From assembly GCA_000611775.1 (NCBI GenBank), contig KK106984.1, positions 3,821,341-3,885,340 on the forward strand: a DNA stretch of 64,000 nucleotides, in the 5' to 3' direction. Under the pieces are notes generated by a model that searched no databases, was not told where the DNA came from, and worked only from the letters and a program-made list of their open reading frames with translations. Source of the stretch: Umbilicaria muhlenbergii. Lineage: Eukaryota; Ascomycota; Lecanoromycetes; Umbilicariales; Umbilicariaceae. A program made the position numbers and the translations under genes. Of the stretch, positions 1-39,249 are shown one piece after another (position 1 is the first letter of the stretch; each line of letters begins with the position of its first letter).

Positions 1-300
1 GCCATGCTGAGTTTCCTCGACACCGTGTACCATCATATCATGAACCGCATCGAAAAAGGAGGCGATCGTGTGATCCAATTTGGCGGCCTGTATACAGAAA
101 ACCCGGAGGGCTGGCTCCAGCTGTATCTCGGCAATGCAAACAACCACCAGTTGACCTGGGGTGTCGCCGCCGCTGCTGTACAGGCAATGGCGACGTTCAT
201 GCAACAGGCCGGTGCTGGGCCGATTACCTGGCAGATCTGGGATGGTATGAATCGAGTTGGTGTGGGTTGGCTGCAGATTTATCGTCCTCCGTCAAATTAG
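1..300 (+). CDS. NNHQ-family small secreted protein, 3' part (cut by window edge)
   Basis: This is the C-terminal part of a gene whose start and first exon lie left of the window. The open frame runs from base 1 to a TAG at 298-300. It carries the family core NANNHQLTWGV (about codons 50-60 from the edge) and the tail motif IWDGMNRVGVG. These match three complete copies in this window, at 5087-5742, 34221-34876 and 38592-39249. In those copies this region follows a signal peptide and a phase-2 intron, so I infer the same for the missing part. Function is unknown. The first visible methionine at base 4 is probably internal, because the aligned copies extend well upstream of it. Confidence 0.72.
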   Translation, partial: AMLSFLDTVYHHIMNRIEKGGDRVIQFGGLYTENPEGWLQLYLGNANNHQLTWGVAAAAVQAMATFMQQAGAGPITWQIWDGMNRVGVGWLQIYRPPSN

Positions 301-858
301 TCGGGGTAAAGTAATACCGCTGAAAAAGGTGTAATAAAGAAGAATTAAAAATCCCAGAATCATATGCTAATAGTGCTACTGGACTCTGTGAAAGGGTTGC
401 ATATGTATGAAGCGACAATGCTACAGATCCTGTGCGGCTGAAGTCGGAACATGACCGTATCATATGAGAAGACTACGCAACCATATCTCAAGATTTCCCC
501 TGATTTGTGTGATTCTGGTGCTTTTGCCTTCTCGCTCTATGTGACCTGACGAGTCCTGGCAATGGCGGAGGCTTTAGGATCCGTGGCGTGTAATGAACAA
601 ACGCTACAAGGTGCAATGGCTCATCCAGAATTACCAATACAGATTTATTTTTTGTACACGTATACACCAATATTAGAGAGTCCATGCCTTGTATCCAACC
701 AACCGTTCCGAGGTTGCAATATATTACACTGCCCATTCAAACGCCTTGAAAATGCCATTTCACCTCTCAGAAGTACGCCCTCCGGCCCCGAATGCAAAGG
801 CAATGGCCCGACTCTAGATGCTGACCCTCAACCGCTCTATCACCCACTCTCACCCCCC
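301..858. other. Intergenic, no gene seen
   Basis: Short open frames here lack family resemblance. The plus-strand frames after about 818 are shadows of the minus-strand gene that ends at 859. The stretch lies between two convergent genes and probably holds both 3' untranslated regions. Confidence 0.6.
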
Positions 859-1889
859 TCACTCCTCCAACCCCATCATCCTCCTCCTCACACTCCCATT
901 AACCACCCCACCCACCCCAAATGCCGGCACAATCCTCGCCATCCGCGCAAAACTACTCCCCACCCAATCCCTACCCACCTTCCTCAGCCGCCCCCTCCAC
1001 CCCACTCCGGCCCCACTCCGATTATACAGATCCAAGCCCAACAAATGCAGCGGCGTGCTGAACAACTGGATCCCCGCCGGCGCCAGAAACTGCGCCACCG
1101 ACGCGCGCGAAACGTGTTTCTCGAGGTCGAAATCCAACGACGACGACGCGAGTGGCAGATACGGCGCCATGAGCGGCGGTAGATTGAACGACGCGAAAAC
1201 CGTCAACGAATCCCGCGCCGCAAACAAGAGGTAACTAACGCCCGGAATCCTCGGTTTCGGCGCGCCGCCCAGGGGGCCAAACAGGCGAGCGAATTGCGAG
1301 TCTTTGTATAAGCACAAGCTCATGTTGACGGAGCTGGTGGCGAGGAATTTGGCCGGCCCCGACGTGATGGTTTGGGAAGGGCGGTTGTGCAGAGTGGCAT
1401 GGAGGGTGTCGATGGTGTTGGCGGTTAGGTAGGTGCCGAAGTAGAGGGCGGTGATGAGGAAGAAGGGGCGGGAGAGGAGGAAGTGGTGGGGGCGGGTTAG
1501 GAGGGTGTGCAGGGAGGAGAGGATGGAGGCGCGTAGGGGGCGGCGGTTGGATGCGTTTTCGATGATGCCGCTATGCGTGTAGTGTTAGTTGCGCGGGGCT
1601 GGTAGGGTGAAAGGGCGTGGTGGATGTACCGGTCTATGATTGTGATTAGGGGCGCGACTAGACCGGATGCGCAGGCTGCGGCGGTCATGTCGGAGGCTAT
1701 TCGCCAGGGGAGGTCGATGGTGTTCCATTTGCGCTCTGGGTGCGGCGTTGGTGAAAGAGGAGTCTTCGGCTTTGGTACCGAGAAGGGTTTGGGGAGTGGG
1801 AGGGACACGGACGGGGTGGTGGTGTCGATGAGGTGGGAAGATGCAACGGCCAGCCTTCGAGGCTCATCGGGGCCGTTGTTGGAAGGCAT
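859..1889 (-). CDS. Conserved fungal mitochondrial membrane protein (C365.16-like 'sequence orphan' family)
   Basis: Two exons, 1889-1630 and 1570-859, encode 323 residues. The 59-nt intron (1571-1629) has GTACAT at the donor, a CTAAC branch point and ends in TAG. The join rebuilds an uninterrupted frame, ...IIDR|GIIENAS.... Conserved-looking segments include TANTIDTLHATLHNRPSQ, GPAKFLATSSVNMSLCLYKD and ARDSLTVFASFNLPPLMAP, with hydrophobic stretches near residues 70-90 and 115-135. From memory this pattern fits a fungal-only family named after S. pombe SPBC365.16, predicted to be mitochondrial. No reaction is known to me. Assignment to that family is recall, not a search; the coding call itself is firm. 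Confidence 0.8.
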
Positions 1890-2425
1890 TGTGGTGACGG
1901 CGGATCCAGTGACGTGGAAGTGGCTTTCCTGGGGGTGGAGTTTTCTTCACCGTGCCACGTTGATGGTGTCCAGGTATCTCCGCTCCTCCGGCGACATGAT
2001 GCCCCTGGGGTGCATCAGATTATGACGGAGGTGGAGCTCCTCTTGCGCGATCGAGTTTTTGCTCGGAGCATTTTCTATCGGGCTTGGATTCGCCGAATCA
2101 CCGACGCCAAAAGAGGAAATCAGGCACGTGCGTGTTTCTTGGGTCCTGGTCCAACGACACCGCCAATTTCTACATCCTCGGTAATTTTCTCGAGCAGATG
2201 CAAGAAATGACAGACTGGCATCCAATCGGCTTTTGTTCCCCGTGTTCTGGTGGAACTTTCGTTCCAAGATCTGGCAGAAAGCCACGGTTCGCACAACGCG
2301 TTCTCTATACATGTCACGCCAACTGTAATACTCCGCATGTGTCTGCCTGATGAAAGCTCCGACCGAGTATCCACAAGCTTCCAACGTTTCCAATCAACAT
2401 AGTCATGATAAAAAGTATCCTCTAT
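1890..2425. other. Intergenic with one doubtful minus-strand frame
   Basis: A 148-codon minus frame (2393-1947) begins only with TTG, shows no domain and ends by running into a possible GTGAAG donor. I could not splice it in frame to the gene downstream. I treat the stretch as the promoter of the 1889 gene plus the 3' flank of the 2426 gene. Confidence 0.5.
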
Positions 2426-2960
2426 TTAGATGTGAGCGAGAGAGTTAAGGATGTCGGTCTTCCGACGCAGGGTGTTAATCTGCGCGCTGTTGAAACGGAA
2501 AATGTGGCTCGCATAGAATACTGGAGTGGCCTTGAAATTGATGAGCTTGCTCGTCTGAAGCATGGCTGTTCCATATAGATCGCCGAAATTGACGATGATA
2601 CGACATGGTCGATCAAAACTCCAAGTGCAAGTAGGATGGAAGAATCCACATTCAACGAGGGTCGTAGTGTCAGTAACACTCATTGCGGACGGCCATATGC
2701 AGATAAGTGGTTTCGCTCCAGCGTCGTAGAAAAGAAATTGGTAGACAAGGACGCGGATTTCGGCTGGAAGCTGAAGAAACCGTGACATCTCTGGTACATG
2801 TTGAGCTGGGCGATCTGTATCTCGAGATAGTTCTCGGCCCAATGAGCTTTCTGGTTTGACTGGATAGATCAGTCAGCGGACTGGGTTGCGTTGAGCTGGT
2901 CAGTGGCTTACCTTGAAGACCACAGGTTGGGTCGCGACAGCAGCACGAGAAGGCACTCAT
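2426..2960 (-). CDS. Small F-box-like / 2EXR-type protein
   Basis: Two exons, 2960-2912 and 2850-2426, encode 157 residues. The first exon gives MSAFSCCCRDPTCGLQ. The 61-nt intron (GTAAGC donor, CCAG acceptor) joins in frame to ESSLGRELSRD. The segment FLQLPAEIRVLVYQFLF (about residues 37-53), followed by LLQTSKLINFKATPVFYASH-like text, is typical of the very large Pezizomycotina families of F-box-like proteins, where an LPxEIRxxIYxxLF helix starts the domain. The role, substrate recognition in a ubiquitin ligase, is inferred only; many members lack a proven Skp1 contact. The protein is shorter than many relatives and could be a truncated duplicate. Confidence 0.72.
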
Positions 2961-3179
2961 GTCTGCGAGTTAGAGTGTTACGGCTAAGACGACATGTAAC
3001 TATGTATAGACACCTGGATGGGATGAACGATTGAGAGGTGATAATGTATTCATGTACCAACAGCTGGCGTGTTGCTGTTGTGCAGGTGAAGTGAAGATGA
3101 ATCTCAGCGTCGAGATGAACCGAACTCGCTTAAGCAAGCACCGGAGTGGAAAGCCCTGAGCTCGGCCCACAACTGAGAG

Positions 3180-4152
3180 CTACAACTCCTTTTCCTTAAC
3201 AGCTCCCTTCTTTGCTTCAATGTTCAAAGCTTCCTGCCTTCCGGTCTTTGGCCGATGTCCCACAGCCTCCGGACCACCAAACGTCTCAAACCCTGTATGA
3301 AAAGCCCACTCCACGGCTTGCTCCACCGGCTTGTCGAACAAGAAAGGCAAAAATGGCACAGCAGCCAGACCGAGCTAGAGTATAAAGTCAGCGGTGATAA
3401 TCATCTACAAAGCATCAAACCTACCCCTATTGGCCCATATGACCGAATCCTAACATTCTTCACATCCTTCAATGCTCTTCCCGAGTACCTGACAATACTA
3501 TGTATCGTAAAGGCCGGAAGGCCCATACTGGCCACACTCTGAAAGACCGCTCGTTGCGCCATGACGCTTCTATAGTCCTCGATAGCAGGCACGTGACCCG
3601 GCTGCTCCACCATAGACACTGTCTCCCCTTTGTCCGGCCCTAAGCTCGCTGTTTTGTGCTTCTCATTCTCTACCTTCTGAGATAATAGGCCTGGCGCACC
3701 CGGATGCAGAACCCTCTGATTGCGGAGATAGGCTTTGTAGCCCTCGTGAGCTACATCACCGGCAAGGTAGGCCCAGGAGACGGCGTAGGCACCTCGGATG
3801 AGATAAGGGTGGGCGACGGGCCGGAAGGATTCGCCAATATCAGAGGTGTAGGCGACGTAGCGGTGTGCGCTGAGGAGGATGGTGCGGAGACGGGTTGCGT
3901 AGGCCGCATAGCGAACGTTGGAGTCGGTGGATTCATTGGCGCTGCGGTCGGAAAAGATTAGCACTTGTTCTAGGTCACAGGAGATCAACGGAGCACATAC
4001 GTCCCATCGTATAATCGCTCATAGAGTGATTCCTCATTGTCGACGATCTTCTGTAGTTCTGCAGGAAGTTTTTCTCGAGTAGGAAGCTTGCTCAAATCGG
4101 GAGCCTCTCCTTTCCTTTGTACCACACCATTTGTGGTATTATCTTTCGACAT
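3180..4152 (-). CDS. MTP18: Mitochondrial fission process protein 1 (MTP18/MTFP1 family)
   Basis: Three exons, 4152-4001, 3941-3425 and 3374-3180, encode 287 residues; the introns are 59 nt and 50 nt and both joins restore the frame. Family text is clear: SDIGESFRPVAHPYLIRGAYAVSWAYLAGDV, then RAVFQSVASMGLPAFTIHSIVRYSGRA, then GLAAVPFLPFLFDKPVEQAVEWAF in the last exon. MTP18 is an inner-membrane protein linked to mitochondrial division and morphology. Hydrophobic segments lie near residues 85-105, 185-205 and 220-240. The C-terminal tail is lysine-rich (KKGAVKEKEL). It is transcribed away from ATP19 across a 249-bp spacer, so the two mitochondrial genes may share control. Confidence 0.93.
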
Positions 4153-4401
4153 CTTCCCCGTTGTGCGTGATTGAAGGGGATCAGGCGATCAAAATTTGGG
4201 CTACCAAAGCATTGTATACCTTTCGCCCGCTTGGGGGTAACTGGCGCGCATTACCTTACGCCGATGTCATCGGAGCTGAAGCTGCACGCTTAGTCAGCCG
4301 GATCGAGTGGCGGCGACGACAACAGGTCACTTCAGTCTTCCATTGCCGAAGGAAACGTCTTTGCTCTACTCTTCAGACCTTACACAATTTCACCCTCCAC
4401 C
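4153..4401. promoter_or_regulatory. Shared divergent promoter of MTP18 and ATP19
   Basis: The 249 bp between the two start codons must hold both 5' leaders and promoters. I see no clear TATA box. A CT-rich stretch precedes the ATP19 start at 4402, which sits in the good Kozak context CACCATGG. Confidence 0.55.
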
Positions 4402-4800
4402 ATGGTTGTCACATACAATGTCCTAGGCCGCGAGGTTGGGTCACATGTCGTATGTAGCATTCTCTAACCCTGTCCGCGTTCTCGCACTTACAACCCCCCA
4501 AACCTATCATGCTTTTCATTATCTTCAGTACTGACTATGTTCTTTCGACGACAGCTGGCGATGATCACGTTAGGCACGGCTGGCGGAATCGGTGCCCTCT
4601 CGATGGGCGGCAAGCAGAAAGCAAAACAAGAAGGTCCTCCGATCAATGCTACGAGTAAGGACGAGGAGAAGTTCATACAGTACGCCCCTGCTTCCGGTCG
4701 TCCTGTTGTAGCATCTGGAGTCTTGACGGAAACTGATACCAAGTTCAACAGGGAGTTCCTAGACAAAGCGAACAAGGAGGGACAACCGGCCAAGCATTAG
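4402..4800 (+). CDS. ATP19: Mitochondrial F1Fo-ATP synthase subunit k
   Basis: Two exons, 4402-4449 and 4555-4800, encode 97 residues. Exon 1 reads MVVTYNVLGREVGSHV; after a 105-nt intron (GTATGT...GACAG) the frame continues LAMITLGTAGGIGALSMGG and then GPPINATSKDEEKFIQ. This is the ATP19 pattern: one N-terminal membrane helix followed by the PPIN...DEEKFI motif. Subunit k is a small supernumerary subunit of the membrane Fo part involved in ATP synthase dimers. About 30 residues beyond the FI motif form an unusual hydrophilic tail (ASGRPVVASGVLTETDTKFN and onward), making it longer than the yeast protein of about 68 residues. Confidence 0.93.
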
Positions 4801-5086
4801 AGTGGCGGCTTAAGGAAGGGAAAGGATACTTGAGCTGCAATCGCTTCGGTGCTGGACACTGCAGAGGGATCCGAGAAAGTATAGTAGACGTGATGGTTGC
4901 TTTGCTGGTGGTGTCGTGTCTGTATCATATAATACATTGCACCTGCGGACATTTCACACATCGCTCGCCAACGTATCATCGCGGATTAGCCTGACTACTT
5001 CTTGACTCCTCTTCCGCCCGAGTACCAAGCTTTGACGTTGGCTGGCACCTATTAAAACTGACTTTCAAACCTAAGGTCATCGGCAG

Positions 5087-5742
5087 CTACTCAATCGAGC
5101 CCTGAGCTACTTGGTTCGCACCATCATAGATACTAAAGGTCACCTTCCCCCCGGCGAGCCGATTCACATAGTTCCTCAAGACCCACATGGCTGCGGTCAA
5201 AACGCTGTAAGTCTGCTGATGGTTGTTGGCATTTGCTACATATAATTCTAAACTGTTCGCTCTCTCCATGGTGAACAGGCCGTTCGGAATCAGTCCATCA
5301 CCCGCTTGCTGAAGATGATGCACGAGGCTGGTGAAAGCAGCTTTGATAAGATTTATCACTGCGGACCCGGGATTGATTGGATAGTTGATTGTGAACAGCA
5401 CATACGTTGCACTACCTGGGGCACACCAACGGATGCTGGCAGCGCGGCGTGGTACTAGATTTCGATCTAGGAGGGAAGATGGAGTCACGCTGGGATAAGG
5501 GTCAGTGGTGGGCTCGACTCCACGCCAAATGACTTGGATGACGATGTCACTTACGCTCCGGCCACGATATTAGGATCGTTACCACAGGTTGGTTGACCTC
5601 GGATAGATAGGAATGGAATTAAGTCACTTTTGATGGGTCCTGCCAAGCTGAAGCATGTGAATAGGGCTAATGCAGCAACAGTGGTGATATGGATAGCTCG
5701 CATTCTGGTCATATGGGTGTAGAAGTACTTGGGAAGTTTCAT
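5087..5742 (-). CDS. NNHQ-family small secreted protein, complete copy
   Basis: Two exons, 5742-5555 and 5489-5087, encode 196 residues. In-frame ATGs at 5712 and 5703 are alternative starts; the last gives the tightest signal peptide, MRAIHITTVAALALFTCFSLA. After it come a CGNDP cysteine segment, the phase-2 intron of 65 nt (GTAAGT...CCCAG), then WCAPGSATYV with a second cysteine, the core NANNHQQTYSV, and the tail IYDGANQVAQGSI. Order, intron position and length match the copies at 34221 and 38592. Function is unknown; I predict secretion with one disulfide. Its GC-poor wobble use differs from the 34221 copy. Confidence 0.85.
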
Positions 5743-8700
5743 ACTGTATGCAAGTAGACTTCCAGAACGAACATAATGCTCAAAGGTCAATCAAAAAAAA
5801 GGACTGGTTTAGACAACTTGGATGGCATCAAACCGTAGCTTTGCGAAGCTGAACCGCGAATGCAGGAAGCCAATCATATATCCGCCGGATGGGGACCCAA
5901 GTGTTCAGCTCAGGCGTCAACACCGGCTACCCACGGTCCGTAAACCAAGTCCAAGCAGATTAGTCTGGCCTGAACGGCATGAAGTGCTCTAGCGCGCGAA
6001 TTGAAACTCGCAAACAGAAGTAAAGCCACGGAATCAAAGTGAGAGCTCGAACAGAATGATTTAGGGCACAGAGTCAAAAACAAGAGATGAAGCCTGCAGC
6101 AAGGGATAGAACTAGGCTGCAGGTATGATTTTAGCGTTTTTCCCTTAGTATGCACCACACGACAGCCGTAAGAACGTTGTAATCCCATCCAAACCGAGAA
6201 ACACTTCTCTGATTGTCAGTGTGGTGGAGTAATAGACCGCGACTCTACCAGTTTGTTATGATCCCGGTAAGCATTGATGGCGTCCTCCTATTGCAAGTCT
6301 GAGCGAGTTTCAATTGTACATCGTTGTTTCCACCACAAACATGCTCGGACAGTTGCATTTGAGGCTGGCGGCTCATGGTGTATCACATTTGACTAGTTGA
6401 ACGTCAAGGCGTTGAATTAGCTCTACGTTGTCTCATCTTCGAAAGATTTGTGCTTTGCCCTACCTTTTCGCGCATTTGAGTTCACTGAAGCACTTTGTCA
6501 TTCGTGATAGCAACCACCAGACTCCATCGAGACGACCGAGCAAATCTTTTCAAGTACAGCAACGGCTGACTGCACAGATCGGGAAGTATGGCGAGTCGCA
6601 TACTTCTGGCTCGTCTGCCTAGCCCTCAACTCCATGACCTGACCTTCCGGCCGAGTGTGCAATTATCCCACACTATTACGCTGGGTGCTGCGGAGTTCTC
6701 CGGTCATAAGCTGTATTGATGCCTTTGGGATTTTTTATGTTTGGGCGTCGCAGATGTTCTGCCATCTCGAGAGCCCTGGAAATAGCGCTAGCAGAGTTGC
6801 AAGAGCGCGGTTTCGAGACGTTGAGAGCGACGGAAGGAAGAAAGTTGGCGCAGTTTGGTGAAGGATAAGGCTTTCAGATCGGCAGTGCCTGTCCTGGGCG
6901 CGCTGCCTCAAGCAATCAAGTTCTTGGCCTCGAAAGGCGTCCCAAGCACGTAAGCGTGGGGCGCAGTGTACCTGGGTTCTTGGGTTGTTGTCGAGCTAAC
7001 TGTCGTAATGGCCCGGGAGAGGAAAACAACAGAGATGCCATGACCAGAACACATCCTTCTAAGGAAATGGAAACCAAGTGGACGAAACTACGAACTCTCT
7101 GACAATGCTCCGCGTTCATCGCGCAGGGCCTTGTCTGTGGCTTATGCAGCTCTAGTCTCTTCCCTCAGTGGAGTTTTCGGTATGTTATGATACCATTCTT
7201 TGTCTTGTTGGTGACGGCGGGCTGGCTTGCTCTGAACTCTGAGGCAGATAAAGCACTAGTTTGTTTCAGTGTAGCACCTTCTATGTTCTTCCAGGCAGTG
7301 TTTGGAATTTATATATCGCACGCCTCTTTATGGCGTGCTGTGATTTCAGCCGCTTCTATGGCTGTTTGTGCGATGTATTTTGAATGCGCGATGTGTGTTG
7401 CTTTCGGCGTTGCCGTCGATAGAGTCGTCACGCGTCCGTGGCCCCGAATCTTGACGGTTAGCATCGATACAGCTTCCTTATATAATATCTTTGTTCCAAT
7501 CGTGTATTATAGTTGTACCTATGAACCTGAAGAGACCATAAAGCCAAAATGGACGGACTTGCTGGGCTAAGGAATCAGCTGTACCACGGTCAGCTACTAC
7601 CCGCCTAAGCCGCCTCGCTCTCTATTCTACTTTCAATCCCCCACTCTACAGCTACTGGTAACCAGGTTACCCAATTCTACCAAGGATCGCTTTCGTTAGG
7701 AGAAGTCCTCGTGCAGCTAAAACATAGAGTGACTGCTTCACCGAAGACAAACTCGCCACCGAAGCAAGCCTTTACCCCCAAATCAACACCTGCTACCCCA
7801 CACTTCCCTGGATGACCGGAGACCAATTTCAGTATCCTCATGGAATTTGATTGGACGCGTACGCCCGACATTTAGCCCTATCGGACCGGGATAATGTTCA
7901 TGACTAAGCAGACAATCACGCTAGCGACGACATGCTCTCATTCCCGTGCAGCTCTCGCATAGTCCAACATTTATTGGGTCCGCTATCAGTTCCTTGGACT
8001 GGCTCGACTGGCTCCTCTGGCTCATGTGTAACTTCCCTCTTCTACCACCGTCGATTCACAGCCGACGTCATGGCTGGGCCCGAAGTTGAGCTTGAAGTGA
8101 TTGCGCAGTGAGCCGCTCTAAAGTGTTGACATTTCTCAAGTCTGAGATAACTGCACGGGAACTTGCACACCCAGAAGCAGCCGCCACGGCGCGACAGCGC
8201 CCACCTTATCTCCGTGTGCTGTTAAAATTTTTACCAGCCGAAGTTTTCTGATCGGGTGTAATAATGTCGATTGGAATGACATCCACGAGCCTTTCACACA
8301 TTCCGATGACATATCCATACCCTATTTCCTTGTTGCGGTGCTATCTCACCGGATTTCCTTTCTTTGGTTCTTCTCACTCAGTGTGGCATCTCGCACGCCA
8401 CAAAGTACATGTCCAGATTGTGTCTGCTTTTTTCAGTAGCCGTCCTACTCTTGCCACCTGTTTACCTGCTGTCTCCCATGCCTACCTACTTCGTGGTACC
8501 TACCCATCCAATCTATATCGAATGGAGCACTATGAATTCCTCACTTGACGGGAATGCTACCACTTGATGTCTGAGCCAAGCCTCTGGGCAGATAAGGATC
8601 TCCCCATGACGAGCCATATTGATCACATTTTTCTACGCGCGAGGATGGTTCTCCGTCCCAATTACAATGGGTTTTCTATGGTGTCGAGATCGCCACTTTT

Positions 8701-8833
8701 CCATACCTTATAATCTCCCACGTTCATGGCGGAGTGTCTTGTGATCAAAGAATCTTTTGCTACTAACTTATACCATATCCACCGGGCAACGAAGACAGAC
8801 CTAGCTTGTGCCGACTACTCTTACTAGACCGAT
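5743..8833. other. 3.1 kb gene-poor stretch
   Basis: Only short frames without family resemblance occur, apart from a doubtful 127-codon frame at 7187-7570 listed separately. No tRNA, terminal inverted repeats or recognisable transposon domains were found. The base composition is more AT-rich than the surrounding genes. Confidence 0.5.
7187..7570 (+). CDS. Doubtful hydrophobic protein frame
   Basis: An ATG-started 127-codon frame encodes an unusually hydrophobic product, with candidate membrane helices near residues 3-20, 28-48, 50-75 and 90-112 and a polar end EPEETIKPKW. I recognise no family. It stands alone in a gene-poor stretch without clear splice partners. It may be a small orphan membrane protein, part of a decayed gene, or chance. 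Confidence 0.2.
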   Translation: MIPFFVLLVTAGWLALNSEADKALVCFSVAPSMFFQAVFGIYISHASLWRAVISAASMAVCAMYFECAMCVAFGVAVDRVVTRPWPRILTVSIDTASLYNIFVPIVYYSCTYEPEETIKPKWTDLLG

Positions 8834-10759
8834 ATGGAGGACAAGAAGAGAACGCATCTCTTGCATGAACAGTTCAGAGAAGAGATCCGAAACCTCGGGC
8901 TTGCGTTGACTGGGGACGGCTACGTTCGATGGGATAAGCGGAGTCCAGCTCACCCAAGAAACTGGACAGCGAGGAGAAAAGCGTACGATATAGGAGTTAT
9001 TATTTTCTTGGAGTTCTTCACGTAAAGCCATTCAACTTCCACAGCTGATGCTTCGAAATCTGCTAATTGTCTATGGCTCAATAGGACCGCTATCAGCGCT
9101 GCTGGGGTGAGAATCAATAAGGGTCCCCAGATGTAGACACAGAATGACTAAATGTTTACAGACCCCTGCATCTGAGCAAGCTCGATATGAGTATGGCATC
9201 GGTCGCACCTTCGCCATTTTTGCATTCACATCCATGTGCGTATCGCAGTCCTACCCTGTCTTTGCTTATACCGGCCTTTACTAACAAATGCTTGTTTTCC
9301 ACCGTTCAGATACCTTTTAGGGCAATGCCTTGGCGCTGTCTTGTTCCCTTCGTATTCAGAAACTTTTGGACGCAAGCCTCTGTATACTGTATCGAGCCTC
9401 CTCTACTGTATCTTCTGTGTGATGATCGCGGACGTTCCGAACTTCGCAGCAGTGATAATAGGACGTTTTATAACTGGAGTTTTATCTTCCGTACCCACGG
9501 TTATTATTGCAGGCTCCATTGAGGACATGTTCGATACGGAAGACCGGATCTGGATGGTTTTTTCGTGGGCTGTCATTGCAAACCTGGGTCTGGTATTGGG
9601 ACCGATCATGAGTACATATGTCACATATTCACTTGGCTGGTCAGGGCTCTTCCCCTTACAACGTACATTGTGTCGTATAACTGACGCACCCAACAGGCGC
9701 TGGGTCTTTCACATTGCTGCTATCGTCATGACAGTAGTATTCGTGCTATCTCTCGGCATAAGAGAAAGCCGGCCCAGCCTACTCCTCGAACGGCGTGTAG
9801 CAGCTCTTCGCAAATCGACTGGCCATATATCTTTCCGTATCCGCAATCCAGACTACGTCCCAGACTTCAAAAGTTTTATACACACTTCTCTAATCCGACC
9901 CTTACATCTCCTCGTTGCGGAACCGATCGTCTTACTGGTCACAATCATGAGCGCCGTCTCCTTTGGACTCATCTATTTCTTCGCAGAAGCCCTTCCTGTT
10001 GTCTATGGCTCCTTTGGATTCTCAGAACGCCAAGCGTCTTTAGCCTTCATACCTGTTGGAATCGGCCTTGTAGGCGGTGTTTTCACCCGACTCTACGATC
10101 GCCGCATCCTCCAGTGCCGCCGCAAGCAAAACAAGCCGCTCGAGCCCGAAGACAAACTTGTAGGCTTTGCAATTGCAGCACCAGTCCTCGCGATTAGCCT
10201 CTGGATCTTCGCATGGACCGTCCCTCCACTAGTCCCACACGTCCACTGGATCGTTTCCATGTTCGCGCTCGTCCTCTCCGGCTTCGCCGCCAACGAATTC
10301 GACTGCACGCTCGCGGGTTACCTGTCGGACAGCTACACCATCTACGCGGCCTCCGCCTACGCTGGACTCTCATTACTGCGCACATTCGCATGTGCGGCGT
10401 TCCCGCTGTTCGGGCACCAGATGTACACGGGCCTTGGCTCGAACGTGGCCTCTTCGATCCTCGCGACCGTTGCGACAGTGTTCTGCATCTGCCCCATCAT
10501 CTTTCTCAAGTATGGAAAGAGGATAAGGGAGGCCAGTAAATTTGCGAGGTATAGCTTGACGGTGTATCGTGACAATCAACTTGAGGACAATGGGGACGAG
10601 GTGGATGAGGTGGGGAGGCAGATGGAGGATGCGTCGAGGGCTATATCGCTGGAGAAAAGCGATAGGCCTGTCTCGCTCGATGAGGCGTCGGGGTCGGTGT
10701 CACTGGCAGATACATCTAGGACTGTGTCGATGGAAGAGAAATCGGTGCTGGAGGTTTGA
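8834..10759 (+). CDS. MFS transporter, DHA1 type (drug/polyamine-like)
   Basis: Five exons, 8834-9021, 9085-9106, 9162-9235, 9310-9639 and 9697-10759, encode 558 residues. The N-terminus has the usual cytosolic lead (SPAHPRNWTARRKAYDIG). Helices follow, with the loop 2-3 signature GAVLFPSYSETFGRKPLY and the helix-5 type run GLVLGPIMSTYV. A long central loop and twelve predicted membrane segments fit proton-coupled drug:H+ antiporters of the DHA1 group. Substrate cannot be read from sequence. Exon 2 is a 22-nt microexon. The last intron (57 nt) is a multiple of three and stop-free, so it can be mistaken for coding; removing it restores SLGWRWVFH. The cytosolic C-tail is rich in SLE/SLD/SLA-type repeats ending about 60 residues after the last helix. 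Confidence 0.9.
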
Positions 10760-11160
10760 GCAGGTGATGTATGTCTTGGAATAGGAGTTTGGCTTTCGGT
10801 TATGATAGAGAGGGATACTGGGTATGGGGCGTAAGAGGATATTTACTGGATTGAATTTCTTAGAGGTTGGTTGTGCGATTCGGGCCATGAGAAATGGTCA
10901 GCAAGCCCTAATTTTCTGTCTCGCGCCGCAGTGTGATGGAGTGATAGTGGTAGATTAGCGGGGCTTCATACCGATATTTCATATGTCTCTCATATTTATC
11001 TTTTGCGTGCTAAAAGCGATTGTGATGCCGACGAGTGAGCAGAGCTCTCAAATAAAGTGTTGAAAAGGTATCAAAGATGGTCCTATGTGGCTCTATACTC
11101 CTAATGAATTTTTCGCACCAGCAACGCCGTTCCCTCTATACTGTACAATCCATACATCCA
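10760..11160. other. Intergenic between convergent genes
   Basis: No gene seen. It separates the MFS stop from the metG stop and should contain both polyadenylation regions; AATAAA-like text (ctcaaataaagtg) is present near 11050. Confidence 0.5.
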
Positions 11161-25816: not shown

Positions 25817-26035
25817 GGTGTTTTGTAGTGAGTTTGGCGGATGATTATTGGTGTAATCTGGAGTTGCGGAATTGAGGAGAGGATTAGAGTGGGTGGATTT
25901 CTCATACATCTGTGGAGTGCTCCAGAGGGTTGTGAATTTGCGTCAATTACCAATTGCTTTTAGTTCACTGCTCCTCTCGTTACGGCTTGGTTGCTCTTGC
26001 TAAACCTCATCTCAAACCACTGCAACAACCCAGCG

Positions 26036-30099: not shown

Positions 30100-30410
30100 A
30101 TATGATGGCATTACATGGCGTTCATGTGGCGAAGAGAGCAAATACTAAGTGTCTGCTAGAGAAGTCCTCCATCCAATTCAACGTGAGTAGAATCGATCGG
30201 CTTTCGGAAACCAGAAGGATGTAGCGCAAAATGAACCGGTATCCTATGCCTCATCTAGTCTAATACGTTCTAGAGCATTTCAGAGGCCTCTTTATCTCTA
30301 TTGCACCGAAATGCGCCACTGGCCGACCATTGATTCGCAAAAGAAACGCCTTGCAATGCCAATGCTGTTACCTTTACGAAAACCTTCTCACCTCCACATG
30401 ACTTTTACGG

Positions 30411-31288
30411 TCATGCTTCTCGCAACAGCAGCCTCTCTCCCACGTCCGAATTATCAGGCCTGATTCCCAAGCCTCTCCAAAATTCCTCCCGCTCCCTCAG
30501 CACCTCCCTACACCACCCCTTCATCTCCTCCAGCTCAATCCTCTGCGCCACTCGCAGAAACTCTCCCAGGTCCAACTTTCCCTCCCCTCTTCTCTCATAC
30601 TCCATCATCTGCAACAACAGCTCCATCTTGTCGACATCATGCACAAACTTCGCCTCCAGCGTCTCACTATCCTCGTACTCCTGCCACACCTCCCGGACCG
30701 CCCTGCCTTGCACCCCTCCATCCACACCCCCCAGTAGCGTCCCCGTCAAGTAATCCATTGTCGTGCTCTCGCGCCTACTTTTCTCTTCCTTTGGGATGCC
30801 GTCCTTTGGCGTGATATCGCCCACCAGACTCTCCGCCATGTCGTGCACCAGCGCCATTTGGGTGCAGTGCGGAATGTTGAGGCGGTCGGAGAGGGAGGGT
30901 GGGGCCAGCATGGTCAGGATAGACATGCGGTACATGTGGTCTGAGATTGATTCGCCGTGGGCGATGCCGAAGCGGCACCAGCCTTCGCGTTTGGTAGTTT
31001 TGAGGCGCTCGAGGAGGTGGAAGAATGGGAGTGGACTTGTAGGGGCGGTGGAAGGAGAAGGTGTGGGGAGGGTGGCAAGCACTGTGCGGAGTGTCAGACC
31101 ATGTTCATAACTCAGGTATAGTTATCTTCATAGTGTGGGCAATGCAGTGAGGTTCACATACCTGCCTCTACAGACCATGGATCCGAAGGTGCAGGCTTGT
31201 TCGGGAGTATTGGAGTTGATGAGCTATCTAGGGCTGGACTCGTTATTGCGCTGGTCCCATTGGTTTCTGGCGCAGCCGGTGACACCAT
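30411..31288 (-). CDS. HD-domain 5'-deoxynucleotidase (HDDC2 / yeast YGK1 type)
   Basis: Two exons, 31288-31162 and 31081-30411, encode 265 residues, joined by an 80-nt intron (GTATGT...CACAG). The metal-binding HD pattern is visible: H in SDHMYRMSIL, the HD pair in LVHDMAESLVGDITP, and the distal D in FVHDVDKMELLLQ. HDDC2/YfbR relatives hydrolyse deoxynucleoside 5'-monophosphates. The first 45 residues are Ser/Pro/Thr-rich and unlike the domain. Starting at the first ATG of exon 1 is preferred since the second exon has no good ATG before the domain. Confidence 0.9.
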
Positions 31289-31807
31289 GCTTTTGTTCTC
31301 CGTTTCGAAAAGCTCAGCAAGAGCAGTCGGGGATGAAGAATGGGATTCCAGATAGACGACAAATGTGGCCTTCAGGTGTATTTATGGGCGCGATGGTGTT
31401 TGTCGTTTGTTGTAGAACAGGAGGTGAAGGCGCAGAATCCGAGGCGGTGATGAGGGTCAGACAAACAAAGGTCCAGCTTCGGGCGCTCGTGCTTGCTTAT
31501 GGTTAGTGCATGGCCCGCAGCAGCGTTTGGTTGAGGGTGTCGAGGGTAACGAGGGTGTTAAGCGTAGGCGAGCTCCAGGCACGTCAGGGACGCGCCGTCT
31601 GTGACTGGTCGCCATGATGCCCGTTGTTTACCCGCAAGTTTGACCGGGCCCGCTGTACTTTGCGCCAGCATCAACACAGACGCTCCATGTCCTCCCAACC
31701 CTTGTTGCACAACTGTCATTTGCCATGTATGACGATGTCCCTGTGGCAAAGCTCTTTCGTAGCAACGCAAGCGCCTGATGGCCCATGGCAGGTCTCCTGC
31801 ACCGGCA
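31289..31807. promoter_or_regulatory. Divergent upstream region of the HD-domain gene and the HAUS6-like gene
   Basis: These 519 bp separate two divergent start codons. Plus-strand frames here have no domain. No specific regulatory motif stands out. Confidence 0.45.
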
Positions 31808-34005
31808 ATGGCATCACTAATACCCTCGAATGCCGCAGTCTTTGCTACTAACCTGCGGCTTCTTGATTTGGATAACCGCCACGACTGGCCGTCGATCACA
31901 GCACAAACACTGTCGACCAAGGATGCACAGCAGAATCAGAAAAACCGCATTCGTTGTGTTGAATGGGCTCTATACCGCCTCTTCGAGATCTGGGATCCTG
32001 AGGAAACAAAAAACGTAAGGTTCTCCTACGCCTTCAGATCAAAGCAAGTTAACGCTCGTCTTGCCAGAAACTCCAGCCATTCTTCCCGCCCTTGGAGCCC
32101 CTACAGTCGCTCAACCTACGCGCCGCATTATACAGGGCTTTGGACACTCTCAAGAAGAACGGGGTCCTGGGTAGGGAGATAACTCTACGAAAGACTATGT
32201 TGGACGAATGCAAAGGGGACAGGTTTGAGGAAGTGCTTGTTGCCATCTCGACTATGGTGCTGAAACGACAAATACGGAATGAGAGTATAAGTGCGGGATC
32301 GGTCACTAGGGGCTTGGTTCTGGGACATTCTATCCCAGTAAGCCAGCAGGAGTCAATGTTGCCGTTAACAATCGCCCATCGAGCATCATTGACCGCTCAA
32401 CTACGGAAGAGGGAGGAACTGAAATCACGCTATTCTGCATTCGGGCGGTTGTTGGACCTAAAGGAGCACGAACTTGCAGATTGGGCTCGACAACTGAATA
32501 GAGCGTCTCAAAACAAATCGGAGGATATCGTACCTGCAAAGGCTGTTGATGAATGCAAGGAGCAATTAAAGAATCATTGGCTTGGGGATACGAAATGGGT
32601 AGAGACTATCGTCCTTGGACATCCACATGCAAGAGATGACTCTCTCCTCGATACTTCGTTCAACAAAGTATGGTGTAACGTTCGGAACGGAGCTGTTGCT
32701 AGTGTGAAAGCCACGGTTGGCAGGACACTGCTAGCAGACTTAGAAGTTCGGGCCGCAGGACAGCAAGCCAGACTGGGAAGGTGGAAGAGATTCCAGGAGG
32801 ACATGAAGAAGAGTGCTGCTTCAAGAGATGTCCCAATGAAAGCACACTTGAGCCCAAAGCAAGAGAGAGGACCCGGCTTTGAGTTCCGTCGTCACCAAGA
32901 TCTAGTCCCCAAGCTCAGCCATAGTCAGGGTGATCAATCTACCCAAGAAGCCGCGCACAGTCTTCCAATGACTACTATTGCCAGCGAATACCAAAAGTTG
33001 ATCACCTCAATGCAAGAAGAGTTGGCGAACGTAGGCAAGTCGAAGACTCGCAATGGTACGAGCTGGCGTGGAGCGTCTGAACAAGGAACCCGGGTATCAA
33101 AGAATGGTGTGGGTGTAGAGGGAATATCAACTTTGTCCGAATCGCCCTTCGAACGTGGTTCGCCACTCTTAAAAGACCATGAATCACTGGAAGAGAGATC
33201 ATCAATCTTTGCGCCTTCGAACATTCCAACAAGGACCCGAAGAGTTCATCATCGCACGACGAGCATCATAGATTCTGACAGTTTCGATAGTCCACCCGAA
33301 ACCTACAATGTTCCCCCTCCAAAGGAGTCATTGAGCATACTTTCTCCAAGCACATCTCCGGAGCAGCTACTGTCCGAGTGTACGACTTTTGGTGACGCAG
33401 AACCCAGTGTGCCGGCGCTGGAGCCTCCACGAACACAATACCCCGATGACCAGTCATCACCCCAGAAGGATGAAGACGAAACGCTTGCAGAGCAAATTCT
33501 TTCTTCAATAGTCAACGCAGAGCCATCCCCAGTGAAGCCCAAGCTTTCTCTCGCCGAACGGACCCGCAGATCGATGGCATATATCCACAACAAGGATCCG
33601 CCCTCAATGGCACCACCTCCCATACCACCCCCGCTACCGCAAATGTCGGAGTCTCCTGTCTTGCCATCTCCTGACTACCAAACTTTCGATAGTCGGGCCT
33701 CTCTCCTTGAACGAACCCGCCAGTCCATGTCTCTGCTTCCCACCAAACCTCGCAAATCCATGCACAAGCCTCGGCATTCCAAGATATTCCCAACGAATCA
33801 ATTTGAGACGCCAAAGAAACAGCACCCTGGCATGATCGACGATGTCAAAAGTCTGACACCCCCTGAGGAGCTCTTCAGCCAAGAGGCGGATTATGCTAGC
33901 GTCTTCAAGAGTAGGCCCAAGATCGGGCTGAGTCCAACAATCTCACCCGCAAGATCGGAGGAGATACCGAGTGAAGTGAAAGAGATGGTAAAGACGGCGA
34001 ACTAG
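31808..34005 (+). CDS. HAUS augmin-like complex subunit 6, N-terminal family
   Basis: Two exons, 31808-32014 and 32068-34005, encode 714 residues; the 53-nt intron joins ETKN|KLQPFFPPLEP in phase 0. The N-terminal third matches the HAUS6 N-domain pattern (NLRLLDLDNRHDWPSI, RCVEWALYRLFEIWDP, FEEVLVAISTMVLKR), followed by helical, coiled-coil-prone text to about residue 330. The C-terminal half is disordered and carries two copies of SLxERTRxSM (near 561 and 612). Augmin recruits gamma-tubulin to existing spindle microtubules. An ATG at 31778 would add ten residues, but MASLIPSNAAVF is the more typical start. Confidence 0.85.
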
Positions 34006-34220
34006 GATAGCTCGCCAGTGGTAAGGCTTGTAGGGAGAATTGGTGGTGTTTGAGGTTTCCTTGCGTGATATTGATACCCTAAGACTTGAGCAAAATTCAA
34101 TGTCACTTTTGCTTAATTACCTCCAGTCACGGCGGAGAGAATTAGATTGGTATTACATTTCCCCTGCCGCTTGACCCAAACACTTCAAAGACCACACGCC
34201 ACCACCAAGATTATCACCCA

Positions 34221-34876
34221 TCATCCCCCCGCCCCAAACGTCCCATTCCCCACCTGGTTCTTCCCATCGAAAACATCGAAAATCAGCGCCCCCGGCTGGC
34301 CCCCCGCCGCCTGCGTCATCTGCATATACCCTTCGAGCGCGATCAACGCCGACCCGACGACCCCCCACGTCTGCTGGTGGTTATTCGTGTTCTGGAAAAA
34401 CACCTCGACGCCGAGATCCTGATACGTCCACTCGCCGAAGATGATGATGCGGTCGCCGCCGCCGGTCTTGATCTCGTTGCGCGTGGCGGTGAAGGCGGCG
34501 TCGACGACGTGTTGGATGGTGCTCCAGGCGTGGGCGCCGGGCAGGGGCCGGGCGTAGAGGAGGGAGATGTAGGTTTGCGTGTTGGGGGTACACCAGATGA
34601 TGATGTCGGAGGTGGGGAGTTCGGGTTCGATGTCGGGGCGGGCCGTGAAGGTGCTGTATGGATGGTAAAGTAGAGTTAGTATATGGGGTGTGTGCTGCTT
34701 GGTGGGTAGGAGACGTACGTTCCGGGGACGGTGGTGGGACCGTTGTAGCAGTATTGTTTGCGACCGCGAGGAGACAGTATTGGTGATGAGTTATCTGTAG
34801 GTGGTAGGACAGTGAGGCTGAAAGATGGGGGTGGTAGCAATGTTAGTAAGGCTGGGAGGGTAAAGATCAGCCGCAT
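34221..34876 (-). CDS. NNHQ-family small secreted protein, complete GC-rich copy
   Basis: Two exons, 34876-34719 and 34653-34221, encode 196 residues. The signal peptide MRLIFTLPALLTLLPPPSFS is followed by YCYNGPTTVPG with the first conserved cysteine. Then come the phase-2 intron (65 nt, GTACGT...ACAG), WCTPNTQTYIS with the second cysteine, the core NTNNHQQTWGV and the tail VFDGKNQVGNGTF. Exon 2 is strongly G/C-biased at third positions, unlike the copies at 5087 and 38592. Function unknown. It lies between HAUS6 and the M3 peptidase gene, on the same strand as the latter. Confidence 0.87.
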
Positions 34877-35591
34877 GGTAGGATAATAATAGTCTTTCTA
34901 GATCGAGGAAAATGTATGGTTACGCAAGGACACTGAAAGAATGTGAATAGAGGAATGGAATGTTTATGGCTGCTTGTTGCTTCCGTAGGTGGTTTTGTTT
35001 TCCTTCATATCTGCGTTTCAAAAGCGCAAGAAATCATTGGCGCCAATTTAACTCAGTTCCATCAAAAACTCGCATGCTGAAGCGTGATACATATTGTTTC
35101 GAAGAAACCGCATGAGTGGCTCAGGTCTTGGCCAAGGGTAACAGCCGCATATGGGTCGCAAATATAGATGGGAGTAAGCGATCCGCTTCGCAAAGAGAGC
35201 TGGGAAAGACAAGATTTGTAGGCCGCGTTCGAGTCTCAATTTGAGACTCGACACAGCAAAACAACCTGATTGCAAACCTGAAGAGTTTCGGCATCTACCT
35301 GCTCAAGGATTGTCGGGATTACCGTCCTGATCCTGAGACAACAAATACGTCACCATCTGTCTTGAGAATGATCATACTAACACTCAGCCAAGAATTGGGT
35401 GTCACCCTGCTGTAGGTACACGGCAGCGCTTGTCTTTCCTTCTCCGCATCGCCATCATCATGATACAGCGCTCCTATCCCCCGGGTCACTCAGTCCACAC
35501 CTTCACTGATGGAACTCGGCACACTCATTTGAAGCAATGCGCAGCGGAGGAACTCTCGCGATCAGGCAGATCGCTCGACTATTCGTCACCC
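34877..35591. other. Intergenic, contains a perfect 21-bp palindrome
   Basis: Promoter side of the secreted-protein gene and 3' flank of the M3 peptidase gene. No gene seen; see the palindrome at 35230-35250. Confidence 0.5.
35230..35250. repeat. Perfect inverted repeat, 10-bp arms with a 1-bp spacer
   Basis: CGAGTCTCAA, then T, then TTGAGACTCG: arms are exact reverse complements. It could be a dimer-type protein binding site or a small hairpin. No T-run follows, and its link to either flanking gene is unknown. Confidence 0.7.
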
Positions 35592-37844
35592 TCACGCCAG
35601 GCCGAGTTCCCGATAGAAGGCCTCGGTACTGGGCTTCCGGCCCAGGAAGTCCTCAAGGGTCTGCATTTCATCCTGGCTGCCGCCGCGCTCAAGCACAGTG
35701 TGGCGGTAGCGTCTGCCTTCTTTGGGATTCATGGGGTCTTTGGCGAAAACTGAGAAAAACATGTCTGCAGAGTACACTTGGGAGCTGCGCACAAAGTAAC
35801 AAATCCCATCAGCACCGCTACATCTTCCACAGTAGGCGATAGAGGCGGAAAATACATACCTCAGATACCCGTAATAACCTGCATCATATCCACCGATCAA
35901 GTGCCCAAACGTAGCCTCGCCGTTGCCCCATGCATCGCCTTGGCCCAAGACCTCCGGCCCGTCCAGTTGGCAAACTTCTTTCCGTAAGGTATTGTACTTC
36001 TCTGACACCTTCAGTTTCTCGATCTCTTCATGATTGGCCGGTTCATGCACTGTCATGTCGAAGATGCCAAAATGCAGCTGTCGCAGATTAAACAGTGCGT
36101 CGTTGACGTGCTTCGTCTTGATGAGATTCGATATCAGTTCATCTGGGATCTTTTCCTTCGGCTGGGCATTTGGGTTTGAACTTGAGCCTGACGCATTGGC
36201 CTGCTCTTGCCACGCGGCCATGTACTCGGGTGAGAGGGATGAGTAGTGCTGGCTTAGCGCCTTCAACTGGGAAGGCGTCCAGCACCAGTTCTCCAGCATT
36301 TGGCTTGGCGCCTCCACGAAGTCACGGACGGTGCTTGTGCCATGGAAACGTGAGTATATCGTTCTGGACACGAGATCGTGAATTCCATGGCCGAGCTCAT
36401 GGAAGAGTGTCACGACCTCATCGTGCTTGAGCAAGCTTGGCTTTTTAGCCGTTGGTTTGGAGAAATTGCATACGAGTGCAGTGGCGGGATATCTACGGGT
36501 GCCGTTTGTGTCTATGAAGCCAGGTTGAATATTGAAGTTGGCAGCGTGCCCGTATTTGCCTTCGCGGGGATGCATGTCAAGGTAGAGATATCCAACGAAA
36601 CCACTACCTTCGTCTTCATCGTCCCAGACACTGAAGAGCTGCACGTCAGGGTGCCAGACAACGTCCTCGCCTTTTTTGGTTGGGGAAATAGACGCGCGGT
36701 CCTCGCCGGTGATTTCCACGAAGCCAAGGCCAAAGAGCTGTTCAAAGATCTCAAGCATGCCATGGATAGTTGTTTGTAGAGGGAAATATTCGGCAATCTT
36801 TTGTGCATCCAGTTGATAGTCTTGTTCTAAAAGCATTCGATCGTAGAACTTATGATCCCACAGGAAATAGCGTCCATCCAAGTCCTTTCCGGCGCCCCGT
36901 TCTTTCAAGTCTTTTTCTTTGAGACTTTTCAATACTTCTCTCTCCTGCGCTCCTCCTTTTGTAAGACGTTGGCGAAGATCGCCCAAGAAGTCGTCCACCG
37001 TCTTCGCTGTCTTCATCATCTTGTCCTCAATCCTGAAGGCTGCGTGATTTGGGTAGCCGAGCAATCTCGCCGCTTCATCTCGTAATACAATCGCTTCTTT
37101 GAACAATGGAACATTCTGGTTGCACTTGTTCTCGTTCTCGATGAACACCGTCTTCCGCGTTTCGGAGCTTTTGGCGTATTTAAGGGTAGGGAACAGATCG
37201 GGGTACTTGAACGTCAGGAAAAGCTTCCCAACATGTTCGCCCTCGCCCTTGGCCAGTCCAGACACGACGTCCTCAGGAACACCGTCAAGCTGCTGCGGTG
37301 TGAACCAAAGTCCTCCTTTTTCTTCGTTGAGATTTTTCTGGAAGATAATACTGATCTGACTTAATCTCTTCTTGATTTCCTTGAAGCGATCTCTCTTCGG
37401 GCCCTCAGGCAGTCCAAGCCCATTACGGATGTAGTTCTTGTAGTCCTTTTCCAGTAGTCGTTGGGATTCTGGATCAAGCTCCTCCTTGTTCTTGAGAGCG
37501 GCGTCAACAAGCTTATAAACGTCTTCGCGCATGGAAGACTCAATGGAAAAGTCATCCATCAGCTGGTCAGCTTCTGTCGAGGAGTCACGAAGGGCTTGGT
37601 CCGTGGACACTGATTGGTAGAAACCAAGGATGTGCGATTCGAGGCCAAATTCGTTCTCTTCTACCGCCATAGGTAGCACGACGTTTTGGAAGGTTGCATC
37701 ACTGGGCGTTATGCTGGCCGCTATCCTGTCCTGGACCCCTCGATATTTGTCTATGATTCTCTTCGTGTCTTTGATTAACGATGAAGGCGTTGCGGTGAAC
37801 AGCGGAGGTGCCTGCGGAGGCTTCTTGAACGCTTGTGGGGCCAT
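35592..37844 (-). CDS. PRD1: M3 family oligopeptidase (saccharolysin / thimet oligopeptidase)
   Basis: Two exons, 37844-35860 and 35784-35592, encode 725 residues. The zinc motif HELGH is at 482-486, in LFHELGHGIHDLV. M3 landmarks include GYPNHAAFRIEDKM, GYLYLDMHPREGKYGHAANF, and EAPSQMLENW, which gives the third ligand Glu. The enzyme cuts short peptides in the cytosol and, in yeast, the mitochondrial intermembrane space. The 75-nt intron (35785-35859) is stop-free and a multiple of three. Removing it restores GYLSSQVYSADMFFSVF, while retaining it would insert 25 residues. Upstream of this ATG the frame stays open for about 70 codons without another ATG. Confidence 0.93.
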   Translation of the reverse strand: MAPQAFKKPPQAPPLFTATPSSLIKDTKRIIDKYRGVQDRIAASITPSDATFQNVVLPMAVEENEFGLESHILGFYQSVSTDQALRDSSTEADQLMDDFSIESSMREDVYKLVDAALKNKEELDPESQRLLEKDYKNYIRNGLGLPEGPKRDRFKEIKKRLSQISIIFQKNLNEEKGGLWFTPQQLDGVPEDVVSGLAKGEGEHVGKLFLTFKYPDLFPTLKYAKSSETRKTVFIENENKCNQNVPLFKEAIVLRDEAARLLGYPNHAAFRIEDKMMKTAKTVDDFLGDLRQRLTKGGAQEREVLKSLKEKDLKERGAGKDLDGRYFLWDHKFYDRMLLEQDYQLDAQKIAEYFPLQTTIHGMLEIFEQLFGLGFVEITGEDRASISPTKKGEDVVWHPDVQLFSVWDDEDEGSGFVGYLYLDMHPREGKYGHAANFNIQPGFIDTNGTRRYPATALVCNFSKPTAKKPSLLKHDEVVTLFHELGHGIHDLVSRTIYSRFHGTSTVRDFVEAPSQMLENWCWTPSQLKALSQHYSSLSPEYMAAWQEQANASGSSSNPNAQPKEKIPDELISNLIKTKHVNDALFNLRQLHFGIFDMTVHEPANHEEIEKLKVSEKYNTLRKEVCQLDGPEVLGQGDAWGNGEATFGHLIGGYDAGYYGYLRYVFSASIAYCGRCSGADGICYFVRSSQVYSADMFFSVFAKDPMNPKEGRRYRHTVLERGGSQDEMQTLEDFLGRKPSTEAFYRELGLA

Positions 37845-38591
37845 CGTCGCGGTAGTCAGTGGTTTGACAAAGGCAGATGTTGGTTTGATCTTCAGTGGGT
37901 GGATTTGTTGGAAGATGGCTGAAACCCTTGAGCCAAACCTGATAGGAAGAGCCAGAATGAGGGCGAGAGAAACGAAGAGGGAGATGACGGCGAGCAGGAG
38001 CTTTGTAGACCGGGAGCCCGCCAGATTGACAATTTGGCCGCCTGTGTAGGGACTGAGGTGAATGGCGGTCGAAGGATATTGCTACGAGTGTTGACGGGGC
38101 GATGTCCGCACGGCTGGGTCCTTTACCCGACGGACTGTGGCAGACTTGGCAGTGACCTTGGCGGAATCTGGGTATTCTTACCACTCCTACAGTCTTGCAC
38201 TTGCTTGCTGGTATACTGTTGATGCTGAGGTTACCAACGTTGTCACCTCTGACAGATAACAGTGTGCAAGACAGTTGGACGGCTTCAAGCTGCTGAAAAC
38301 AGTGGGACAAAAAGGCTCAGCGCTTGAAACAACTGCCACCCTCCTTCGTGTGCTCACGACATCACGACCACTCATGATGGACTCGGAGCTGAATCAACCC
38401 AGCATCTAAGGATTCATTCCCAAGTTACTTGCGCTCTAGAGAAGCAATATATGGAGAGGGACGGATGATCGGTTCATACGGTTTCCTTTGTCTTTTCGCA
38501 TCGTCTTGTTAACGGGCCTTGCGGGATGTGTCGTTTGGAAATCAGTCCTGCTTTCAAGTCGTGCACCATTTGCTGCTGTGTGATAGTCAAT
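37845..38591. other. Divergent upstream region of PRD1 and an NNHQ-family gene
   Basis: No independent gene supported. The right part serves the 38592 gene, the left part PRD1. In the PRD1 frame, about 70 codons upstream are open and encode a hydrophobic run (STKLLLAVISLFVSLALIL), with no ATG. Confidence 0.45.
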
Positions 38592-39249
38592 ATGCAAATA
38601 TTTTGTCTGTCATCTCTTCTTCTGTTAGTCCGGTCCGCTGGTCCTAGCGTAGCCATATCAGTCAACACATCCTCGATCCTTGCTCGGAGCTCTTTTTGCG
38701 CCAATGCTCCCACCACCATTGCGGGAACGTGAGTCAAGAAACCCTCCCCTGCCCTGCCCTCCCTGCCACCAAGGCCACAAAAAAGTTGACCCTCGCATCG
38801 TCCCCAGGCTATTGCACCGCCGTGATATCGTCCCCCACGTCAACGAACGCACTTCCTCTCATCCCCTCCCTGTCCTCCGCGCCGGGCCCCATTCCAAAAT
38901 CTGGTGTGCCGTCGGTTCGAAAACCTACGTTACCTTCACAATGACCCGCATCATCCCTGGCCTCCGCGTCCTTGAAGTCCTGAATGCAGCGTACGTCGGC
39001 ATCACCGAGCACATCAAAGCCGTGGGCGACGGACTGCTGCCGGGGCCGGATGGTATCTTCATGTGGTTGGGACCGAACGGCCTTGAATTGCACACCCAGA
39101 ATGCTAACAACCACCAAACAACCTGGGGTGTATTGGGCGCGGCCATCATGGCTCTGGGGGATTACATGCACAGTTTCGATGTATATGGGGCCGTGGATTT
39201 CAACATCTGGGACGGCTTTAATCACGTAGGTCATGGAACGATTGGGTAG
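38592..39249 (+). CDS. NNHQ-family small secreted protein, complete copy
   Basis: Two exons, 38592-38728 and 38808-39249, encode 192 residues. A signal peptide (MQIFCLSSLLLLVRSAGPSVA) is followed by FCANAPTTIAG with the first conserved cysteine. Then come the phase-2 intron (79 nt, GTGAGT...CCCCAG), WCAVGSKTYV with the second cysteine, the core NANNHQTTWGVLGAAIMAL and the tail IWDGFNHVGHGTIG. An upstream in-frame ATG at 38526 would add 22 residues ahead of the hydrophobic core; the inner ATG gives the better signal peptide. Secretion is predicted; function unknown. Confidence 0.87.

Follow-up and report, generated by a model that had tools for sequence, protein, structure and literature searches.

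The described proteins whose fold would come closest to that predicted for the proteins reported here are the KP4 killer proteins (PF09044; Zt-KP4, PDB 8acx), ginkbilobin-2 with the DUF26 domain (PF01657), a land-plant family with a C-8X-C-2X-C motif, and the glycan-binding protein Y3 from Coprinus comatus (PDB 5v6i). In the window, i.e., the whole 64,000-nucleotide stretch of the rock-tripe lichen fungus Umbilicaria muehlenbergii that was analysed (GCA_000611775.1, contig KK106984.1, positions 3,821,341 to 3,885,340), four genes, numbered copies 1 to 4 along the stretch, encode small, putatively secreted proteins with an NNHQ core, here called the NNHQ family. This family is only 3-6% identical to KP4, without a profile match; KP4 lacks the NNHQ core, and eight KP4 paralogues of the same genome have five invariant cysteines, whereas NNHQ copies usually have two. 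Fewer than three cysteines are present in 56 of 80 NNHQ copies, unlike the C-8X-C-2X-C arrangement of ginkbilobin-2, and there is no sequence match to Y3. What was computed is one family, its size, a common gene structure, paired cysteines, deep divergence, some cross-genus orthologues and a predicted fold.

In the portions of a study of lichen fungi that are used here (PMC9232553), 107-207 small secreted proteins are counted, U. muehlenbergii is included with 75% of its set called species-specific, and early resynthesis is reported to induce most lineage-specific small secreted proteins of Gyalolechia flavorubescens. The NNHQ family is not singled out in these portions.

Size and Genomic Layout of the NNHQ Family

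The genome searched comprises 34,788,950 bases in seven contigs (C1-C7) and includes the window, whose GC content is about 52%; for strain KoLRILF000956, the consulted part of the genome report gives 34,812,353 bp, seven scaffolds, 8,294 genes and 47.12% GC (PMC3999499). DNA patterns for NNHQxT match 50 places when Y or F codons come next and 89 when W/F-type codons do, with few in common, while reversed control patterns match nowhere in the genome. Three protein queries give at least 155, 154 and 150 matches, 150 candidates being scored per query and unscored ones being missed, and the full-length protein of copy 4 matches other copies with E-values down to 6.6e-37. The shared motifs are thus not due to chance. 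After merging of same-strand matches within 350 bases and addition of some places picked by eye, the family amounts to about 171 places, a count in which broken genes could appear twice; 163 have a protein-level match and eight a pattern match only, and the four of these eight that were inspected (L061, L075, L085, and L095) all contain a family open frame. An earlier note on this DNA, made from the sequence alone, had spoken of a four-copy family, a number that is far too low.

Copies are found on all seven contigs, at densities of 1.8-7.2 per Mb, and eight places lie no more than 100 kb from the end of a contig, where 6.9 are expected. The family had been described as not in tandem: it is indeed mostly dispersed, but 26 of 164 gaps between neighbours are shorter than 3 kb, compared with a mean of 3.1 and a maximum of 9 in 500 random placings. 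On C1, one local cluster (L062, C1:5859200-5865000) brings together four members, not all in the same orientation, in a span of 6 kb. Most matches are free of stops; C1:7221103-7221471 and a few others are interrupted by stops within the matched part of exon 2 and are possible pseudogenes.

Common Gene Structure and Paired Cysteines

The gene models in the window are as follows.

1..300, + strand: copy 1, 3' part of exon 2, with NANNHQLTW core, IWDGMNRVGVG tail and stop at 298-300
5087..5489, - strand: copy 2, exon 2, with RWCAPGSATYV, NANNHQQTY, IYDGANQVAQG and stop
5490..5554, - strand: copy 2, phase-2 intron of 65 nucleotides, GTAAGT...TCCCAG
5555..5703, - strand: copy 2, exon 1, signal peptide, QPTCGNDPNIVAGA
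34221..34653, - strand: copy 3, exon 2, with IIWCTPNTQTY, NTNNHQQTW, VFDGKNQVGNG and stop
34654..34718, - strand: copy 3, phase-2 intron of 65 nucleotides, GTACGT...ATACAG
34719..34876, - strand: copy 3, exon 1, signal peptide, QYCYNGPTTVPGT
38592..38728, + strand: copy 4, exon 1, signal peptide, SFCANAPTTIAGT
38729..38807, + strand: copy 4, phase-2 intron of 79 nucleotides, GTGAGT...CCCCAG
38808..39249, + strand: copy 4, exon 2, KIWCAVGSKTYV, with NANNHQTTW, IWDGFNHVGHG and stop

Copies 2-4 have two exons each and encode about 183-196 residues. Of copy 1, the window contains no more than the final 99 codons of exon 2, the rest of that exon and exon 1 lying upstream; together with the adjoining stretch, copy 1 is a normal member of 203 residues with a 69-nucleotide intron. 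In all four copies a short phase-2 intron directly follows the block C-x-N-x-P-x-x-x-A-G-T. The earlier note had given the four loci a common order of motifs in secreted-type proteins, which is found in all of them, except that the second cysteine of copy 1 stands in an F-C and not a W-C context. The coordinates proposed for copies 3 and 4 are confirmed, with introns at 34718-34654 and 38729-38807. Copy 2, placed at 5087-5742, is a real gene, but comparison with other family members makes the family-like start at 5703 (MRAIHI...) more likely than the in-frame upstream ATGs up to 5742.

In the genome, 105 distinct copies were present in the stretches fetched, which cover mainly C1 and part of C2, fewer of C3-C6 and none of C7. 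Gene models were obtained for 97 of them (8 remained without), and a filter on intron phase 2, a length of 150-300 residues, leader and family score removed 17 to leave a set of 80. The scoring of the first models rewarded phase 2 and also took leader and family score into account; 87 of the 97 have a phase-2 intron. As this choice was not neutral, introns were re-chosen from splice signals and open frame alone: a strict candidate is then found in 76 of the 105 copies, in phase 2 in 71 of them, and a hydrophobic leader, a putative signal peptide, is present in 67 of the 76. The median intron of the 80 models is 70 nucleotides and the median protein 187.5 residues long; their pairwise identity has a median of 35% and reaches 49% at most.

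Conservation is strongest in the G-D of GDG, in N-x-N-N-H-Q-x-T and in D-G-x-x-x-V-G-x-G. Two cysteines are present in 43 of the 80 mature proteins, fewer in 13 and more in 24. The two motif cysteines occur together in 62 copies, are both absent from 11 and are found singly in only 7 (p 2.8e-8), a pattern that a disulfide would produce. Sites at which R follows P, R or K are frequent ahead of the first cysteine (in 41/80 copies, against a shuffled mean of 20 and a maximum of 33) and in the linker that separates the two cysteines (61/80, against a shuffled mean of 36 and a maximum of 47), but not inside the domain (15/80; shuffled mean 17). In the alignment, 71 of the 80 copies have an arginine at a column ahead of the first cysteine, and 63 have one at a column in the linker, which belongs to the regions that the AlphaFold models predict with low confidence. 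Kex2-type cutting, possibly into two disulfide-joined chains, would account for these arginine sites.

Relatives and Age of the Expansion

A profile search for relatives, which relies on shared 5-residue words and may thus let distant ones escape, matched 162 proteins. Among the best 120 of these, most of them without an organism name, 14 are named, from Hypocenomyce scalaris (6), Lasallia pustulata (7) and Umbilicaria vellea (1); the 35 proteins listed by a second profile search include four named ones, from Lasallia and Hypocenomyce. As Hypocenomyce and Lasallia belong to the order Umbilicariales, the family has so far been seen by name, among the matches listed, only in three genera of this order. 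Bacterial and archaeal genome contigs gave nine pattern matches and no relative.

The earlier note had left the family as either old or fast-evolving, and the evidence leans towards the former. When the relatives are compared with 105 of the approximately 171 copies, 65 of the 120 listed are 60-88% identical to one copy, covering 31 of the 105, whereas the best paralogue of each copy is at a median of only 41% (maximum 64%, over 92 residues). Four named relatives reach 53-66% (Lasallia P0119, P0080, and P0098; Hypocenomyce P0070). Copy 3 pairs with L. pustulata FRX48_01845 (P0119; 66% over 174 residues, tree support 1.0), one other copy with Lasallia P0098 (1.0) and another with Hypocenomyce P0041 (0.95). 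These pairings indicate that the expansion at least partly predates the split of these genera. Terminal branches make up 86% of the length of the tree, which combines 80 copies with the 14 named relatives, and 15 of its 91 internal nodes have a support of at least 0.9. Since most of the 65 close relatives are unnamed metagenome sequences and ten of the 14 named ones are only 36-46% identical to any of the copies compared, fast change is nevertheless possible for some copies.

Tandem amplification is rejected as the main source of the family, the neighbour being the closest relative in only two of 14 neighbouring pairs (ranked from one member per pair). A recent expansion is rejected as well: coding identity is 62.5% at most among the 80 copies, and in all 105 only two pairs attain 62-64% protein identity, over 92-114 residues. 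Four DNA-methylase matches are present in the genome, two of them strong (C6:814627-815778 and C4:3522938-3523849). If one of these is an enzyme of the repeat-induced point mutation type, that process may account for the absence of recent copies.

Predicted Fold

No known family was recovered at the sequence level. Searching 73 members against Pfam-A gave nothing recurring (15 families, each in a single member, best E 0.01) and, in particular, no match to PF09044, which was not found in the four window copies either, or to PF01657; the family profile found a single match in PDB, at E = 2, and a viral structure library gave none at E below 0.001. KP4 homology was also rejected by profile comparison, hhalign of 56 members with the eight KP4 paralogues giving a probability of 0.3%. 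The statement that no described domain is recognisable therefore holds.

The AlphaFold model of copy 4 has a mean predicted local distance difference test (pLDDT) score of 90.0, with ten-residue blocks at 96-98 from residue 31 on. Zt-KP4 is the top structural match of both models obtained, and Y3 is among the matches of one of the two; LDL (4NDV) is absent from those listed for either. Hot-dog thioesterases, which make up most of the top Foldseek matches by E-value, were discarded for template-modelling scores of about 0.1-0.2 and root-mean-square deviations of about 13-17 Å. The predicted fold would thus be an alpha/beta-sandwich close to KP4, ginkbilobin and Y3. The profile and structure comparison suggested by the earlier note accordingly places the family in no characterised sequence family, but near known proteins in predicted fold.

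Independently of the NNHQ family, 14 true KP4 (PF09044) matches above the curated cut-off lie elsewhere in the genome, on C1, C2, C3, C4, C5, and C7, one of them (C3:1814535-1814936) about 0.8 kb from an NNHQ member (C3:1813292-1813732).

Possible Functions

The earlier note had suggested that the NNHQ proteins act at the cell surface or in an interaction, which may be so and which the modelled fold now backs. About 170 deeply diverged, small, putatively secreted single-domain proteins fit recognition of partner surfaces best, a reading that we favour tentatively and that falls somewhat short of probable. The proteins would be secreted from the lichen fungus, trimmed at the conserved arginine sites and each held by one disulfide; outside the cell they would then serve as binding proteins whose most likely targets are different surface glycans of algae, bacteria or fungi, and the fungus would gain a broad set of receptors or ligands with which to recognise and hold partners. 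A more ambitious version is quite unlikely: an order-specific recognition system of about 170 long-maintained lectin/killer-fold proteins, turned by Kex2-type cuts, one ahead of the first cysteine and one in the linker, into two-chain, disulfide-linked binders, the whole set reading algal and microbial surfaces and deciding on acceptance or exclusion.

The main rival to surface recognition, possible but clearly less probable, is a killer-protein-like antimicrobial arsenal that would inhibit other fungi, algae or bacteria, in the manner of KP4 relatives, and so guard the slow-growing thallus. The first rank of Zt-KP4 for both models and the true KP4 genes of the same genome speak for it, and the conserved PR/RR sites ahead of the first cysteine and in the linker recall Kex2-processed killer toxins. 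In the lichen fungus Cladonia grayi, moreover, a "KP4 killer toxin-like" gene has a value of 150, presumably a fold change, in a coculture gene table, and lectins too are among the genes discussed for coculture in the part of the paper drawn upon (PMC6652019); this precedent is compatible with either recognition or an arsenal. Sequence homology to KP4 was not found, however, the usual two cysteines contrast with the five of the KP4 genes, and some orthologues are kept across genera whereas weapons might turn over faster.

Alternatively, the proteins could be effectors acting on Trebouxia, damping its defence or altering its wall like mycorrhiza-induced small secreted proteins. They are small, carry a secretion signal and are lineage-restricted as far as seen, and the Gyalolechia induction, as given in the portions used (PMC9232553), is a precedent. 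That induction concerns another genus and different proteins, however, and neither the lack of a burst of recent copies nor the orthologues shared by some copies across genera favours this explanation, which we consider unlikely. Least likely of all is a purely structural or adhesive function in the fungal cell wall or extracellular matrix, with no part in recognition. The secretion signals, the many copies and the conserved polar turns would be in keeping with a matrix protein, but units of a uniform material would be expected to resemble each other more than the median pairwise identity of 35% indicates, and the proteins, judged by eye, stop shortly past the last strand and have no repeats.

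Neighbouring Genes in the Window

The setting among housekeeping genes that had been described is borne out: between 9236 and 61063, seven of the ten long open reading frames scanned match Pfam families, mostly housekeeping ones (a major facilitator superfamily transporter, a Cys/Met pyridoxal phosphate enzyme, an AAA ATPase, HAUS6, an M3 peptidase, a family 4 glycosyl transferase, and a SET/PHD protein), and the other three have none at E 0.001.

Significance for Lichen Biology

With proteins of a median of 187.5 residues in the set filtered to 150-300, a hydrophobic leader in 67 of 76 copies and named relatives, among the matches listed, all from Umbilicariales, the family has the features of lineage-specific small secreted proteins and may form a large share of the U. 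muehlenbergii set. As shown by its relatives in the genera Lasallia and Hypocenomyce, the family is not confined to one species, which bears on the 75% statement as worded in the portions of that study used here (PMC9232553). No description of it was found in the open-access literature consulted, subscription papers and preprints being outside the scope of the search, and it is apparently undescribed until now.

The genome of U. muehlenbergii thus contains one unnamed family at about 171 places, to be set against 8,294 annotated genes, with a predicted fold common to lectins and killer proteins; according to the same part of the genome report, yeast culture and transformation of the fungus are possible (PMC3999499). 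Expression on algal contact, deletion and glycan binding are therefore directly testable.

The means by which lichen fungi recognise and retain their algae are a long-standing question, and the NNHQ proteins, as modelled here, would be good candidates for molecules of partner recognition or control.
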